Assembly: GCF_004335015.1 (NCBI RefSeq)
Contig: NZ_RQRU01000001.1
Span: 868,001-932,000 of the forward strand
Direction of reading: 5' to 3'
DNA length: 64,000 nucleotides
From: Psychrobacter pygoscelis
GTDB lineage: Bacteria > Pseudomonadota > Gammaproteobacteria > Pseudomonadales > Moraxellaceae
Position 1 is the first letter of the stretch. Each line of letters begins with the position of its first letter. Under the pieces are notes generated by a model. The model made no database searches and was not told where the DNA came from. It saw only the letters and a list, made by a program, of their open reading frames with translations. This document shows, piece after piece, positions 53,132-58,416 of this stretch. A program made the translations under genes and the position numbers.

Positions 53132-53464
53132 ATGAGCCATCAAGTTAGCTTTACCGGTCAAATTACCCCAGAACAACTACAAACCATCGCTGATGACGGC
53201 TTTAAGACAGTGATTAACAACCGTCCAGATGGCGAAGATGCCAACCAGCCAACCAGCAGCGAGATTGAAGCCGCTGCCAAGCAAGCGGGTCTTGCGTACA
53301 AGGAGATCTCTTTTGCCGGTAATGCGTTAACTCAACCTATCGTCGAAGAGTTTGCCGACTACTTTAACGAAGCCGAGCAGCCAATTCTTATGTTCTGCCG
53401 CACCGGCAATCGCTCAAACGGCCTTTATGAAGCGGCTAAGCAGATGGATTTGTTGGACGACTAA
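53132..53464 (+). CDS. DUF442 (TIGR01244) sulfurtransferase/phosphatase-like protein, copy 2
   Basis: A 110-residue paralogue of the preceding gene, with the canonical family pattern: VSFTGQITPEQLQTIADDGFKTVINNRPDGEDANQPTS, KEISFAGNALTQPIVEEFADYF and the active-site loop MFCRTGNRSNGLYE. AGGAATAAAAA precedes the ATG. Tandem with copy 1, so they are a duplication. The second copy keeps the CxxGxRS loop. A strong terminator follows. Confidence 0.9.
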   Translation: MSHQVSFTGQITPEQLQTIADDGFKTVINNRPDGEDANQPTSSEIEAAAKQAGLAYKEISFAGNALTQPIVEEFADYFNEAEQPILMFCRTGNRSNGLYEAAKQMDLLDD

Positions 53465-53543: not shown

Positions 53544-53708
53544 CCTCAGATATCCAGCTTGCCTACCGCTGCTACTGAACAGTACTGCGAGACGATATTA
53601 AACCATCCGCATGTTCAGGCTTGGCGTGAGGCGGCGTTACAGGAGGTACGAAGAATTGAGCAAGATGAGGCGGGTGAGATTTTGAGTTTGGTTGGGGCGT
53701 TGGGTTGA
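53544..53708 (+). pseudogene. Glutathione S-transferase C-terminal remnant
   Basis: An open stretch of 54 codons with no start ends in TGA at 53706. It reads LPTAATEQYCETILNHPHVQ, then AWREAALQEVRRIEQDEAG, which is the usual end of bacterial glutathione S-transferases (YC..IL.HP....W...A..E...I..DE). The frame closes upstream at a TAG, and the DUF442 terminator ends 21 bases before it, so the N-terminal 150 or so residues are gone. It reads toward the convergent SIR2-TPR gene and ends 44 bases from it. Confidence 0.7.
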
Positions 53709-53751: not shown

Positions 53752-56739
53752 TCAGCGATTAATTGAATTCCAAACCTTGTCTAATAAGATTTTAAAGTCA
53801 GCATCTTTAGGGACAGGGAACTGGGCTATGTCTTCGATTGTTCCATCATACAGTTCCTGACCTCCTAATTTCAATGCCGTAGTTAAATGCTCCTCGGATT
53901 GGAAAATTTTCCCTTGCAAAAATTCTGTATAAGCAAGATTGCCTATGAGTACTGCTTTGTTATCATCTGCTATATTCTCTAATCCTTTAGATAAAACATC
54001 ATATGCTTGGCTTAAATAGTTTTGTACCAACTTCTGGTCTGACCAATGTTTTTTAGCTTCTAACAAATAATAATATCCCTGACCATTTAAGGCGTAACCT
54101 ACCTGTTCTTGTAATGCTAACTCACTACTCTTACCAAATTTATCAATGATGGCATCATAGGCAGCTATAGCTTCCTCTGTCTTTTCAAGCTCACCTAATG
54201 ATACGGCTTTATAAACCATTACCTTGGCTACTTGCTCTTGTAATGCTAACTCACTACTCTTACCGAATTTATCAATGATGGCATCATAAATGGCTATAGC
54301 TTCCTGTGTCTTTTCAAGCTGATCTAATGTTACTGCCTTATTAACCATTACCTTGGCTACTCGCTCTTGTAATGCTAACTCACTACTCTTACCAAATTTA
54401 TCAATGATGGCATCATAAATGGCTATAGCTTCCTCTGTCTTTTCAAGCTCACCTAATGATACGGCTTTATTAACCATTGCTTTGGCTACTTGCTCTTGTA
54501 ATGCTAACTCACTACTCTTACCGAATTTATCAATGATGGCATCATAAATGGCTATAGCTTCCTCTGTCTTTTCAAGCTCACCTAATGATACGGCTTTATT
54601 AACCATTGCTTTGGCTACTCGCTCTTGTAATGCTAACTCACTACTCTTACCGAATTTATCAATGATGGCATCATAGGCAGCTATAGCTTCCTCTATTTTT
54701 TCATGCTCACCTAATGATACGGCTTTATTAACCATTGCTTTGGCTACTGGCTCTTGTAATACCAATTCACTACTCTTACCGAATTTATCAATGATGGCAT
54801 CATAAACGGCTATTTCTTCCTCTGTCTTTTCAAGCTCACCTAATGATACGGCTTTATTAACCATTGCTTTGGCTACTTGCTCTTGTAATGCTAACTCACT
54901 ACTCTTACCGAATTTATCAATGATGGCATCATAAACGGCTATTTCTTCCTCTATTTTTTCATGCTCACCTAATGATACGGCTTTATTAACCATTGCTTTG
55001 GCTACTGGCTCTTGTAATACCAATTCACTACTCTTACCGAATTTATCAATGATGGCATCATAAATGGCTATAGCTTCCTGTGTCTTTTCAAGCTGATCTA
55101 ATGTTACTGCCTTATTAACCATTACCTTGGCTACTCGCTCTTGTAATGCTAACTCACTACTCTTACCAAATTTATCAATGATGGCATCATAGGCAGCTAT
55201 AGCTTCCTCTGTCTTTTCAAGCTCACCTAATGATACGGCTTTATTAACCATTGCTTTGGCTACTTGCTCTTGTAATACCAATTCACTACTCTTACCGAAT
55301 TTATTAATGATGGCATCATAAATGGCTGTAGCTTCCTGTGTCTTTTCAAGCTGATCTAATGTTACTGCCTTATTAACCATTGCTTTGGCTACTGGCTCTT
55401 GTAATGCTAACTCACTACTCTTACCAAATTTATCAATGATGGCATCATAAATGGCTATAGCTTCCTGTGTCTTTTCAAGCTGACCTAATGATACGGCCTT
55501 ATTAACCATTACCTTGGCTACTAGCTCTTGTAATGCCAACTCATTGCTATTACCAAATTTATTAATAATTAAATCATAATATTTAATTTTTTCTCGCTTA
55601 TCAGATTGACTCAAGGCTAAATTAAAATATGCACGAGCGAGCCATGATTTTTGCTCATCGTCTAAATCTTGTTTCGCTTCTAGTACTTCTACTACCCTCG
55701 CATAGTCACCTCGTAAGAAGATAGGCAATATATTCGAATCGTTTTCTTGCTCTCTTTTTTGAGCTTCTTTTAACCGCTTTTTGGTCTCTAACAAAATATC
55801 TTGGGTATCATTCGCAAGTCCAGCAGTCATATCGTGTTTTTCATTCACAGACATATCATTATTTCGTGACGGATAATTTGCTATACCTTCTAACTCATTA
55901 ATTAAATGCTCATAAGGATTTGCAAAAATAGTAGGCGGAAAACAGTCTAGAGCCTGAGCTAGTTCGATAAGAAAAATATCTGAACCACCCTCATGACAGC
56001 TGATATAGTGCGCTAACCTTGACTCTAAAATAGAGTTTTGCAAATGGGTAGGTGCATTTTGATTCATATCGACCCAAAATAGTCGGTGTTGTCCAGCGAA
56101 CTCTGTTTCAATTTGAGGAAAAAAAGCATCGTTAAGACCGCTATAGCCGATGAATAATGTTGGCGACTCATTTAGAGTATGGCGAACGAACTCTTCAAGT
56201 AGAGGTGCATGACCATGCGTTTCTGATTCTGAGTTCAGCTGTACAAAGCCGTGTCCTTGACCATGTAAATGAACAATAGCAGGATCATCTATTAAGTTAT
56301 ACAGGTTTAAATTTGAAGCAGTAAAATCATAAGTAGCAGGGTATAAGCCAAGCAAACCACAACTTCTTGCTAATAAATTATCGAAGTTAAATGTTAAGGT
56401 ACGTCTAATGTAACCTTCTTTCATTAAGCAAGCTAAGGCGATATGCGCCCAGTTTATTTTTGCTTTATCAATATAATCTTTTAAGTAATCTCGACGCTTA
56501 GAGACTTCAATACACTCCATACATTTGCCATAATCTTTACGTTCTTCCTCAGCCAAGACTTTTAGCTCTAGCCTAAACCTATCATTAAGCTCTTCAACTA
56601 TTTTACTCGCTAAAGGAATACCTGCTGAGACGGAACATCCAGCGCCTGTGAAAAAGACATAGGGCTTCTCAGCATCTTTAGCGTCTTTCATAAACCTAGC
56701 TAAATCTTCAACACTGTACTGCTGACTCGAACTACCCAT
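53752..56739 (-). CDS. SIR2-domain protein with long near-identical TPR array
   Basis: A 995-residue protein. Residues about 1-290 are a SIR2-like (SIR2_2) domain: the NAD loop FFTGAGCSVSAGIPLASK near residue 29, TFNFDNLLARSCGL, the likely catalytic His in IVHLHGQGHGF, and LFIGYSGLNDAFFPQIE. Residues about 385-875 hold one degenerate and eleven near-identical 43-residue TPR-like units (core YDAIIDKFGKSSELALQE.VAKAMVNKAVSLGELEKTEEAIA). Residues after 880 are a distinct capped helical end. SIR2 domains in Thoeris, DSR, Avs and pAgo systems deplete NAD on phage infection. The frame opens to a GTG at 56796, inside the ahpF terminator, so ATG 56739 is preferred. The gene appears AT-richer than its neighbours. 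No partner gene is adjacent. Confidence 0.88.
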   Translation of the reverse strand: MGSSSQQYSVEDLARFMKDAKDAEKPYVFFTGAGCSVSAGIPLASKIVEELNDRFRLELKVLAEEERKDYGKCMECIEVSKRRDYLKDYIDKAKINWAHIALACLMKEGYIRRTLTFNFDNLLARSCGLLGLYPATYDFTASNLNLYNLIDDPAIVHLHGQGHGFVQLNSESETHGHAPLLEEFVRHTLNESPTLFIGYSGLNDAFFPQIETEFAGQHRLFWVDMNQNAPTHLQNSILESRLAHYISCHEGGSDIFLIELAQALDCFPPTIFANPYEHLINELEGIANYPSRNNDMSVNEKHDMTAGLANDTQDILLETKKRLKEAQKREQENDSNILPIFLRGDYARVVEVLEAKQDLDDEQKSWLARAYFNLALSQSDKREKIKYYDLIINKFGNSNELALQELVAKVMVNKAVSLGQLEKTQEAIAIYDAIIDKFGKSSELALQEPVAKAMVNKAVTLDQLEKTQEATAIYDAIINKFGKSSELVLQEQVAKAMVNKAVSLGELEKTEEAIAAYDAIIDKFGKSSELALQERVAKVMVNKAVTLDQLEKTQEAIAIYDAIIDKFGKSSELVLQEPVAKAMVNKAVSLGEHEKIEEEIAVYDAIIDKFGKSSELALQEQVAKAMVNKAVSLGELEKTEEEIAVYDAIIDKFGKSSELVLQEPVAKAMVNKAVSLGEHEKIEEAIAAYDAIIDKFGKSSELALQERVAKAMVNKAVSLGELEKTEEAIAIYDAIIDKFGKSSELALQEQVAKAMVNKAVSLGELEKTEEAIAIYDAIIDKFGKSSELALQERVAKVMVNKAVTLDQLEKTQEAIAIYDAIIDKFGKSSELALQEQVAKVMVYKAVSLGELEKTEEAIAAYDAIIDKFGKSSELALQEQVGYALNGQGYYYLLEAKKHWSDQKLVQNYLSQAYDVLSKGLENIADDNKAVLIGNLAYTEFLQGKIFQSEEHLTTALKLGGQELYDGTIEDIAQFPVPKDADFKILLDKVWNSINR
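54110..55600. repeat. 129-bp tandem array (12 units) within the SIR2-TPR gene
   Basis: The block CTCACTACTCTTACC (with small changes) recurs exactly every 129 bases, from 54124 at the distal end to a degenerate CTCATTGCTATTACC near 55543, that is 11 periods. Units are mosaics of a few variants, such as LALQEQ, LALQER and LVLQEP ends. Confidence 0.95.
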
Positions 56740-56787: not shown

Positions 56788-56822
56788 AAAAGCCACCTCA
56801 ATTAATGAGATGGCTTTTTTAT
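56788..56822 (-). terminator. Terminator of ahpF overlapping the upstream frame of the SIR2 gene
   Basis: On the minus strand AAAAAAGCCATCTCATT pairs with AATTGAGGTGGCTTTTT. It ends the ahpF transcript 26 bases after its stop and just before the SIR2-TPR gene, so that gene needs its own promoter or read-through. Confidence 0.82.
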
Positions 56823-56847: not shown

Positions 56848-58416
56848 TTACTGCATAACCAAGTATTCAAAAGCTGATAGTGCTGCTTTAGAGCCTTCGC
56901 CCATAGCAATGTTAATCTGCTTGAACGGTACGGTAGTTACATCACCACAAGCAAAGATGCCTTTGCGGTCGGTGTGGCAACGCTCATCAATTTCGATCTC
57001 GCCAAAGCGGTTGACATCGACGAAGCCTTTGATGAAGTCAGAGTTCGGTACAAGGCCAATCTGCACGAATACAGCAGCTAGATCTAGCTCTTTGGTCTCG
57101 CCTGACTCGCGATCTTCATAGACGATTGAGCTTACTTTACCATCAGTCGCTTTGATCTCTTTGGTCGCAGCAGAGGTAATGATATCGATGTTGTCTTTAG
57201 ACTTGGCTTTGTTGACCAAGACTTGGTCAGCTTTTAGCGTGTCAGCGAACTCAAAGACGGTGACGTGACTCACGATGCCAGCTAAGTCTAGCGCTGCCTC
57301 GATACCTGAGTTACCCCCACCGATGACGGCGACATCTTTGCCTTTAAAGAATGGACCGTCGCAATGTGGGCAGTACGCCACGCCATTACCGATGTTCTCT
57401 TCTTCGCCTGGGACGTTCAGCTTACGCCACTGCGCGCCGGTCGCCAAGATGATACTGCGGCTCTCAAAGGTCTCACCAGTATTTAAGTGAATCGCGTAGT
57501 TTTCGTCGTCAGTTTCTGTTAGCTCTCTGACGTTCACGTGCTCTTTTAGCGTGATGTCATACTCTTTTAGATGTTTGTAAAAGTTCGCAGACAACTCAGT
57601 ACCATTGGTTAGCGGTACAGAGATTAAGTTCTCGATGTCTTGCGTGTCTTTGACCTGACCACCGATACGGTCAGCGACGATGGTCACTTTTAGACCTTTA
57701 CGAGCGGTATAAATCGCCGCAGCGACGCCTGCTGGGCCACCACCGACGATGGTCACATCTTGACGCTCAAGCTGATCTGCGTCGTCTTCGTTTGGTGCCG
57801 ACATCAAGTCTGGGAACTGCTCTTGTAGCTTGTCTAAGATACGTGCAGTATCGACTTTACCATTGATAAATGGCTTACCGTTTAAGAATACCGCTGGGAC
57901 GCCTTGGATATTATTGGCTTCAACTTGCTCTTGGAACAGCGCGCCATCAATCATCTCGTTGCTAATGCCGTCATTCAATAGTGCAAATTGGTTAAGCGCT
58001 TGCACGACGTCTGGGCAGCTGTGGCAAGACAGCGATACATAAGTCTGAAACTGCATGGGCTGATTAAAACGTTTAACAAGCTTTTGAATGCCTTCATCAA
58101 GCTTTAGAGTATGACCACCTGCTTGCAGTATCGCTAAGATAAACGAGGTAAACTCGTGGCCGCCTGGGATGCCACTAAAGACGATACCCGTATCACGGCC
58201 TTCGGTCATGACTTTAAAGCTAATTGGGCTAGGTAAGCTGGCATCGACATCAGCGTCATTAAAGTTAATCTTATCGCTAGTACCTGAGACCTTAGTCAAG
58301 AAATCCACTAGCTCAGCACGTTTGCTGTGCTCACCACTGCCAATGACAAAAGTGACAGGACGAGTCATCTTTTCACTATAGCTCTTTACCGCGTCTAATA
58401 AACCTTGGTCCAACAT
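56848..58416 (-). CDS. ahpF: Alkyl hydroperoxide reductase subunit F
   Basis: FAD/NADH disulfide reductase that reduces AhpC. The 522-residue protein has the N-terminal double thioredoxin fold with the CxxC in SLSCHSCPDVVQ near residue 130, then the TrxR-like core with VTIVGGGPAGVAAAIYTARKG, the redox pair in YCPHCDGPFFKG near residue 345 and FACGDVTTVPFKQI. AAGGAAAATTCT precedes the ATG. ahpC lies about 2 kb away, not adjacent. An OxyR-like site lies about 110 bases upstream. Confidence 0.97.
   Translation of the reverse strand: MLDQGLLDAVKSYSEKMTRPVTFVIGSGEHSKRAELVDFLTKVSGTSDKINFNDADVDASLPSPISFKVMTEGRDTGIVFSGIPGGHEFTSFILAILQAGGHTLKLDEGIQKLVKRFNQPMQFQTYVSLSCHSCPDVVQALNQFALLNDGISNEMIDGALFQEQVEANNIQGVPAVFLNGKPFINGKVDTARILDKLQEQFPDLMSAPNEDDADQLERQDVTIVGGGPAGVAAAIYTARKGLKVTIVADRIGGQVKDTQDIENLISVPLTNGTELSANFYKHLKEYDITLKEHVNVRELTETDDENYAIHLNTGETFESRSIILATGAQWRKLNVPGEEENIGNGVAYCPHCDGPFFKGKDVAVIGGGNSGIEAALDLAGIVSHVTVFEFADTLKADQVLVNKAKSKDNIDIITSAATKEIKATDGKVSSIVYEDRESGETKELDLAAVFVQIGLVPNSDFIKGFVDVNRFGEIEIDERCHTDRKGIFACGDVTTVPFKQINIAMGEGSKAALSAFEYLVMQ

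Follow-up and report, generated by a model that had tools for sequence, protein, structure and literature searches.

The window analyzed here, a stretch of 64,000 nucleotides from the genome of Psychrobacter pygoscelis (contig NZ_RQRU01000001.1, positions 868,001 to 932,000), contains a gene for a protein in which an N-terminal SIR2 head is fused to a long array of tetratricopeptide repeats (TPRs). This SIR2-TPR protein is probably a one-protein anti-phage system, which would work like DSR2 as an abortive-infection enzyme that degrades nicotinamide adenine dinucleotide (NADase). DSR2-like abortive infection is the most economical reading. It is supported by the defence-type fold of the head, the retention of N118 and H159, the occurrence of relatives as phage cargo, the accessory nature of the gene, the clade to which the head belongs and the divergence of the arrays. 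It is also supported by the type I restriction genes present in the same chromosomal interval of another species of the genus (G123).

SIR2 head and its fold

The protein consists of a SIR2 head (residues 1-290), a linker (291-387), TPR units 1-11 (388-860), a fading unit 12 and a helical cap (Table 1). A preliminary description of this DNA, made from the sequence alone, had given the position of the gene and the motifs GAGCSVSAGIP, TFNFD and VHLHG, all of which are recovered in the translated frame. The fusion of a SIR2 domain to a TPR array that it proposed is supported by Pfam. The head by itself reaches 25.8 bits with SIR2_2, above the cut-off of 24.5 bits, and the whole protein reaches 23.1 bits, slightly below this cut-off; TPR_6 matches the protein with an E-value of 2.8e-40. 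N118 and H159, the expected catalytic residues, are invariant in eight aligned sequences (the window protein and seven relatives), and so are G32/G34/S36, T116, F119-D120 and G160.

The head was modelled and searched separately, because the long array fills the match list of the full model. The AlphaFold2 (AF2) model of the head (residues 1-296) has a mean pLDDT of 74.7 and a pTM of 0.79. Its best solved fold is SPARSA (Z 21.9, 3.7 Å over 261 residues; Foldseek, 1.3e-10), and further Z-scores, which were computed only on Foldseek's own top chains, are 18.8 for KomC, 18.5 for ThsA, 17.4 for DSR2, 16.8 for SIR2-HerA and 16.4 for Avs5. The first 50 Foldseek rows are all defence sirtuins.

These results make it very unlikely that the protein is a host stress or regulatory deacylase, which uses the TPR array for docking and is unrelated to phages. 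No deacetylase occurs in the first 50 Foldseek rows, and the best defence chains exceed the protein deacetylases Hst2 (Z 15.8) and SIRT3 (Z 15.2) by about 3 to 6 Z units. The weakest defence chains exceed them by none, and this tie of deacetylases at Z 15-16 with part of the defence chains is consistent with a deacylase. NCBIfam also gives weak matches to NAD-dependent deacylases, with 17-25 bits against cut-offs of 221-320. Six clade members from bacterial genomes sit among genes that look ordinary by eye, as expected for a host function, whereas the presence of the gene in only 2 of 105 congeners and the carriage of close relatives by phages argue against it. A shared fold does not prove the activity of the head.

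TPR array and its divergence among relatives

TRF detects a 129-bp tandem repeat at 54099-55566, with 11.4 copies, 90% matches and 0% indels. Units 2-11 are on average 86% identical in amino-acid sequence and 92% identical in nucleotide sequence, and units 4 and 10 have identical DNA. Because the source genome is a draft of 36 contigs, the exact number of repeats may be an artefact of assembly. In the full AF2 model (mean pLDDT 78.5) the solenoid has a pLDDT mostly above 85, and structure comparison with this model reveals a resemblance of the solenoid to OGT, LGN and designed TPRs. Neither a Walker A motif (P-loop) in a pattern scan nor an NTPase family in Pfam is found in the window protein. 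The variable positions of the units are not clustered on the concave face, according to a by-hand mapping with canonical TPR numbering. A promoter-like pair repeats nine times at multiples of 129 bp on the minus strand (54154-55473), as a by-product of the repeat array.

The arrays differ among relatives far more than the heads. The heads of the window protein and of its Psychrobacter relative JB385 are 70-72% identical, whereas their repeats are on average 39% identical (best pair, 49%). Likewise, the heads of L055 and L084 are 69% identical and their repeats 40% (best pair, 56%). The heads of L085 and L114 are 68% identical in proteins of 1185 and 633 residues, with 16.8 repeat copies in L085 and about five, counted by eye, in L114. 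Between the window protein and JB385 the linker is 43% identical over 96 residues and the cap 45% over 114 residues, part of unit 12 included; across relatives linker and cap evolve fast, with 31-45% identity. A generally fast C-terminal half therefore explains part of the contrast between head and repeats, because the linker and cap are also quick to diverge.

Mean identity within an array is 79% for the window protein (all 12 sliced units), 70% for L085, 64% for L055, 60% for L076 and 52% for JB385. The excess of identity within arrays over that between arrays, for the window protein and JB385, requires that the arrays expanded or were homogenised after these two proteins split. Homogenised arrays throughout the clade were considered and rejected, because internal identity falls to 37% in L075 and 35% in L084, with no within-array excess in either. 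The repeat periods of eight proteins are 43, 43, 41, 47, 44, 41, 44 and 35 residues, the last being that of L077, which lies outside the clade.

Near-identical units with a ratio of nonsynonymous to synonymous divergence (dN/dS) of 0.35 (dN 0.067, dS 0.195) could also be a product of neutral slippage in a repeat-rich gene with decaying or no function, and the neighbouring GST gene is itself decaying. This explanation is highly improbable, because the frame is full-length, the active-site residues are kept, and the head is constrained relative to that of JB385 (dN 0.21, dS 2.97, the latter saturated).

The nearest precedent found for the window array is that of fungal immune receptors of the HET-D/HET-E kind (NOD-like receptors, NLRs), in which near-identical WD, ANK or TPR units likewise lie within one receptor. 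In the portion of PMC4986451 that was available, units within one such protein are about 85% alike and undergo concerted evolution. Unlike these receptors, the window protein is bacterial and has no STAND switch; positive selection is reported in fungi, whereas none is detected among the window units. It is conceivable, though doubtful, that the clade represents the counterpart of these self-rearranging receptors in bacteria and phages. A fixed NAD-destroying head would then be combined with a TPR array, which bacteria and temperate phages would rewrite by unequal recombination among their near-identical units.

Among 398 genomes of the phylum, 8 contain arrays of 43-residue units like those of the window protein (E ≤ 1e-25), the source genome included. 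Six of the seven others were compared, with G550 left aside: Pfam matches no SIR2 domain in the N-terminal stretches of five, one of which (L101) has a NACHT/AAA match, and L106 was judged by eye. In L101, L102, L103, L105 and L106 the window-like arrays stand behind N-termini that look cyclase-like by eye. When a six-unit array stretch alone was searched, no match was found in phage records and one was found in plasmids, a Variovorax gene annotated as hypothetical.

Distribution, phage carriage and locus

A tree of 30 heads places the window protein together with JB385, L055, L064, L075, L082, L084 and L085 in a clade with support of 99/99. The clades of SPARSA (98/96) and PDC-S65 (100/100) are separate from it. 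TPRs score above the Pfam cut-offs in seven of these eight members, and below the cut-off in L082 (E 2e-5). The identical DNAs of L085, L086 and L087 were counted once, as were L114 and L115, which are 99.7% identical and lie outside the tree; L110 to L113 duplicate loci already in the sample.

The gene is accessory. A match with E ≤ 1e-3 is found in 4 of 105 genomes of the genus and is full-length in two, the window genome and G117; the matches of G015 and G088 span 88-89 residues with E near 1e-3, and these genomes were excluded as carriers. Both Psychrobacter copies are intact frames, of 995 residues in the window and 737-746 in JB385. Profile searches give matches in 8 genomes out of 390 at the level of the order and in 15 out of 398 at that of the phylum, and a narrower profile in 3 out of 369 at that of the class, each count including the window genome. 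G1139, matched by the narrower profile (E 9.1e-21), was left out of the further comparison. Many matches of the wider searches belong to the SPARSA or PDC-S65 clades. The whole window protein has no match besides itself in 57 genomes (its own and 56 relatives), blastn of the gene against E. coli genomes returns nothing beyond the window itself, and neither the window head alone nor the L064 head gives a new match in viral contigs. Confinement of the homologues to this locus would have spoken against the proposal of the preliminary description, but relatives occur in other families, in another class and in phages.

Two clade members (L084 and L085) and a further relative (L114/L115) are located in phages or prophages. 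In L084, an IMG/VR sequence whose protein is 53% identical to that of the window, an integrase gene is followed by a gene with no assigned role, the SIR2-TPR gene, a gene for a CI-like repressor and then early genes; the integrase and repressor are PHROG matches and the other genes were judged by eye. In L085 the SIR2-TPR gene lies upstream of a terminase gene, which is a PHROG match, and other genes look replication-type and lysozyme-type by eye. In L114/L115, found via L085, it lies amid genes that are tail-like by eye. A gene that looks catalase-like by eye directly adjoins the SIR2-TPR gene in this phage-like region (L114, 3718-7857).

More distant heads are found between the CI repressor and integrase genes of the P2-like Vibrio phage 10N.286.45.B12_PE001, next to the integrase gene in a Vibrio element that is PM2-like, and at a distance of two small genes from the integrase gene of Haloferax virus Halfgib1. 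The Halfgib1 protein carries TPRs, and the C-terminal halves of the two Vibrio proteins match no Pfam family. Iyer et al. (2022) name Halfgib1 as the only archaeal virus of their survey that has a sirtuin (PMC9503650). Rousset et al. (2022) describe, in the part of PMC9122126 at hand, defence hotspots carried by P2-like phages and P4-like satellites, and the P4 hotspot includes STAND proteins that combine a TIR or SIR2 head with repeats at the C-terminus.

Three different phages or prophages carry such genes close to the clade, and the gene could also serve the element itself, by lysogenic conversion or anti-defence, the chromosomal copy being the leftover of a lost prophage. This is quite improbable, because no phage gene is recognised by eye among the open reading frames (ORFs) of the window, and both Psychrobacter copies have intact frames.

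The gene is AT-richer than its surroundings, as had been noted before, with a GC content of 37.4%, whereas the window as a whole has 44.5% and two neighbouring genes have 47.9 and 51.6%. Its frame is open upstream to a GTG at 56796. The ATG at 56739 is likely the start, because earlier codons overlap a hairpin behind the ahpF-like gene (read by eye and absent from the list of the computed scan), because the aligned position of JB385 is also an ATG in frame, and because the frames of L084 and L085 are open only a few residues downstream.

The gene lies in a variable interval between genes which, from their sequences, we take to be Blh-like and AhpF-like; the names GST, BASS symporter and SulP transporter used for neighbours are assigned likewise, except where a Pfam match is given. 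This interval was compared in 40 of the 105 genus genomes. The AhpF-like gene is downstream of the Blh-like gene in 39 of the 40 stretches, the remaining one (L020) stopping before it, and the interval ranges from about 0.1 to 9 kb with cargo that differs between genomes: GST, BASS symporter, other transporters and a PT-HINT protein. In G123 (L041, 465-7375) it holds the type I restriction genes hsdR and hsdM and a disrupted hsdS-like region, which is broken by ORFs that look transposase-like by eye. Proteins with Hint-like ends are encoded in the same interval in L014 (2191-3075; PT-HINT by Pfam) and L015 (441-1301). In L017, L037 and L042 it is filled by a protein of about 275 residues that looks exported and is encoded by one to three paralogues in tandem; the L037 copy has no Pfam match.

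The broken GST gene reported in the preliminary description is real, since 46 residues remain of a GST that is intact in JB385. The JB385 SIR2-TPR gene lies in the same interval on the opposite side of GST, so that the two genes may represent two arrivals or one rearranged arrival.

Table 1. Positions of the SIR2-TPR gene, its parts and the flanking genes in the window, with one gene from a relative
Feature	Position	Strand	Details
SIR2-TPR gene	53752..56739	-	995 aa, ATG start, stop codon included
SIR2 head, residues 1-290	55870..56739	-	Pfam SIR2_2 and AF2 model
N118 codon AAC (TFNFD), expected catalytic Asn	56386..56388	-	alignment of 8 sequences
H159 codon CAT (HLHG), expected catalytic His	56263..56265	-	alignment of 8 sequences
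Linker, residues 291-387, ~97 aa	55579..55869	-	too short for a STAND NTPase
TPR units 1-11, 43 aa (129 bp) each	54160..55578	-	TRF, unit comparison, AF2 solenoid
Unit 12, repeat-like in first half only	54031..54159	-	37-51% identical to units 1-11
C-terminal helical cap	53755..54030	-	AF2 helices
Blh-like gene, one border of the variable interval	53132..53464	+	in 105/105 genus genomes
GST remnant, 46 residues of the C-terminus	53562..53705	+	tblastn, residues 201-246 of intact JB385 GST, 54%
AhpF-like gene, other border of the variable interval	56848..58416	-	genus comparison
Clade gene with Asn118 replaced by Ser	L107, 7492-9495		

Comparison with known systems and proposed mode of action

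No named system with the exact arrangement of the window protein was found, in agreement with the preliminary description, and no PADLOC model fits beyond the SIR2 part. Like DSR2, the window protein is a single polypeptide that carries a SIR2 head at its N-terminus and a long helical part on the C-terminal side, without an NTPase. The part of PMC11087589 that was available describes how a phage tail tube protein binds the distal sensing module of DSR2 and switches on its clustered SIR2 NADases. When the full model is searched with Foldseek, DSR2 chains are within the first 50 matches (8zc9_A at rank 5, E 4.2e-8, TM ~0.2), a predicted likeness of layout, not of family. Unlike DSR2, the window solenoid is a regular TPR array of near-identical units, and no Dsr1 or Dsr2 model is among its PADLOC matches up to E 1.

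SPARSA (SIR2-APAZ) provides the nearest solved head fold, and the top PADLOC score is that of the Aga_SIR2 model (E 4.7e-14), which we take to stand for SPARSA-type proteins. The Aga_SIR2 and pAgo models cover only the SIR2 part, however: no APAZ part is matched, no Argonaute gene is found (PADLOC matches pAgo in none of the remaining 45 window ORFs), and the head lies outside the SPARSA clade. Avs5 resembles the window protein in its N-terminal SIR2 effector and C-terminal TPR-type sensor, and senses a phage protein through a C-terminal repeat domain containing a TPR motif, according to the portion of PMC12931631 at hand; unlike Avs5, the window protein has no central STAND NTPase but a linker of about 97 residues. 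The head matches positions 21-290 of the 592 positions of PDC-S65, a PADLOC candidate single-gene system (E 6.7e-11), whereas its C-terminal half is unmatched, and a full-length PDC-S65 match (L006) falls in the separate PDC-S65 clade. Unlike ThsA of Thoeris, the window protein has a TPR array, not SLOG, behind SIR2 and matches no ThsA model, and no ThsB partner is indicated by any other PADLOC match among the window ORFs.

We infer NADase activity, phage sensing by the TPRs, activation by assembly and abortive infection as the mode of action. In the resting state, the TPR solenoid, linker and cap would hold the SIR2 head inactive. Upon infection, the solenoid would bind either a protein made by the phage or one of the host that the infection has altered, and this binding would cause the heads to assemble into an active form. 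The active heads would hydrolyse NAD+ via N118 and H159, and the loss of NAD+ would stop the cell before phage release. The protein would then work like Avs5 without its NTPase. The array would be the specificity part, probably rebuilt recently from near-identical units in several members, which would explain why arrays that differ in sequence and length occur behind similar heads.

Several results weigh against DSR2-like abortive infection. The head model was built from four sequences and contains weak patches, and EcThsA (Z 15.2), some DSR2 chains and Avs5 tie with deacetylases within the margin of the aligner. Two clade members are substituted at a catalytic residue: L075 (9995-13090) has Asn in place of His159, and L082 has Ser in place of Asn118. 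The PADLOC matches of the window protein are restricted to its SIR2 part, and no second match at 1e-10 is found among 46 window ORFs of at least 120 residues. Around seven relatives (L002, L074, L075, L076, L107, L084 and L085; 106 ORFs, 1e-8) only one Csa3 and one mad2 are matched beyond SIR2, the seven SIR2-model matches being presumably the seven SIR2-TPR genes. No positive selection is detected on the window repeats (dN/dS 0.35), and the arrays of L075 and L084 show the low internal identity given above. The weak arrays and the tied Z-scores lower the confidence both in DSR2-like abortive infection and in the rewriting of arrays.

A defence island around the gene was rejected as a candidate, because the window holds no PADLOC neighbours and the relatives only two isolated matches. 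The clustering of homologues in defence islands, which the preliminary description had considered, is therefore not observed. Its proposal of a single-gene defence system is otherwise supported indirectly, with the defence-type fold, the Asn/His pair, the solenoid, the phage cargo and the patchy distribution in its favour, and the absence of a partner gene agrees with the SIR2-TPR gene being the sole PADLOC match of the window.

SPARSA, KomC and ThsA are NAD-degrading defence effectors. DSR2 is another, according to the part of PMC11087589 that was available. Because these are the nearest folds of the head, it is unlikely that the protein serves defence by another chemistry, in which the head would not drain NAD+ but attach ADP-ribose to a protein or nucleic acid, or produce an ADP-ribose signal. 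The same fold and residues would serve such a chemistry, the substitutions in L075 and L082 suggest varied chemistry in the clade, and Iyer et al. (2022) propose macromolecular ADP-ribosylation for some phage sirtuins in the section of PMC9503650 at hand. Since a catalytic residue is lost in two members, not every clade member need be an NADase, as judged from their sequences.

The name SIR2-TPR occurs in no open-access paper searched, a scope outside which most subscription papers and supplementary tables lie, and the open-access literature on sirtuins, TPRs and phage defence yields Avs5, STAND, FAM118 and reviews. The arrangement is not described in the available parts of PMC9503650, PMC9122126, PMC12700824, PMC13092281, PMC7159879, PMC12931631, PMC10907252 and PMC4986451. 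SIR2-TPR is thus a subfamily for which no name or test was found in print.

To our knowledge, SIR2 defence systems mostly depend on a partner protein, on an NTPase switch or on a sensor that is fixed. In SIR2-TPR, one polypeptide joins a defence-type head directly to an array, which was rebuilt in some members after the heads diverged. If protective, the window protein would be a very simple modular SIR2 sensor. It is a defence-type gene that stands alone among ordinary genes, and searches based on defence islands would miss such genes. If the arrays are indeed rewritten, phage recognition would change within a lineage without acquisition of a new gene, and SIR2-TPR offers a test of whether recombination between repeats alters the phage specificity of bacteria.

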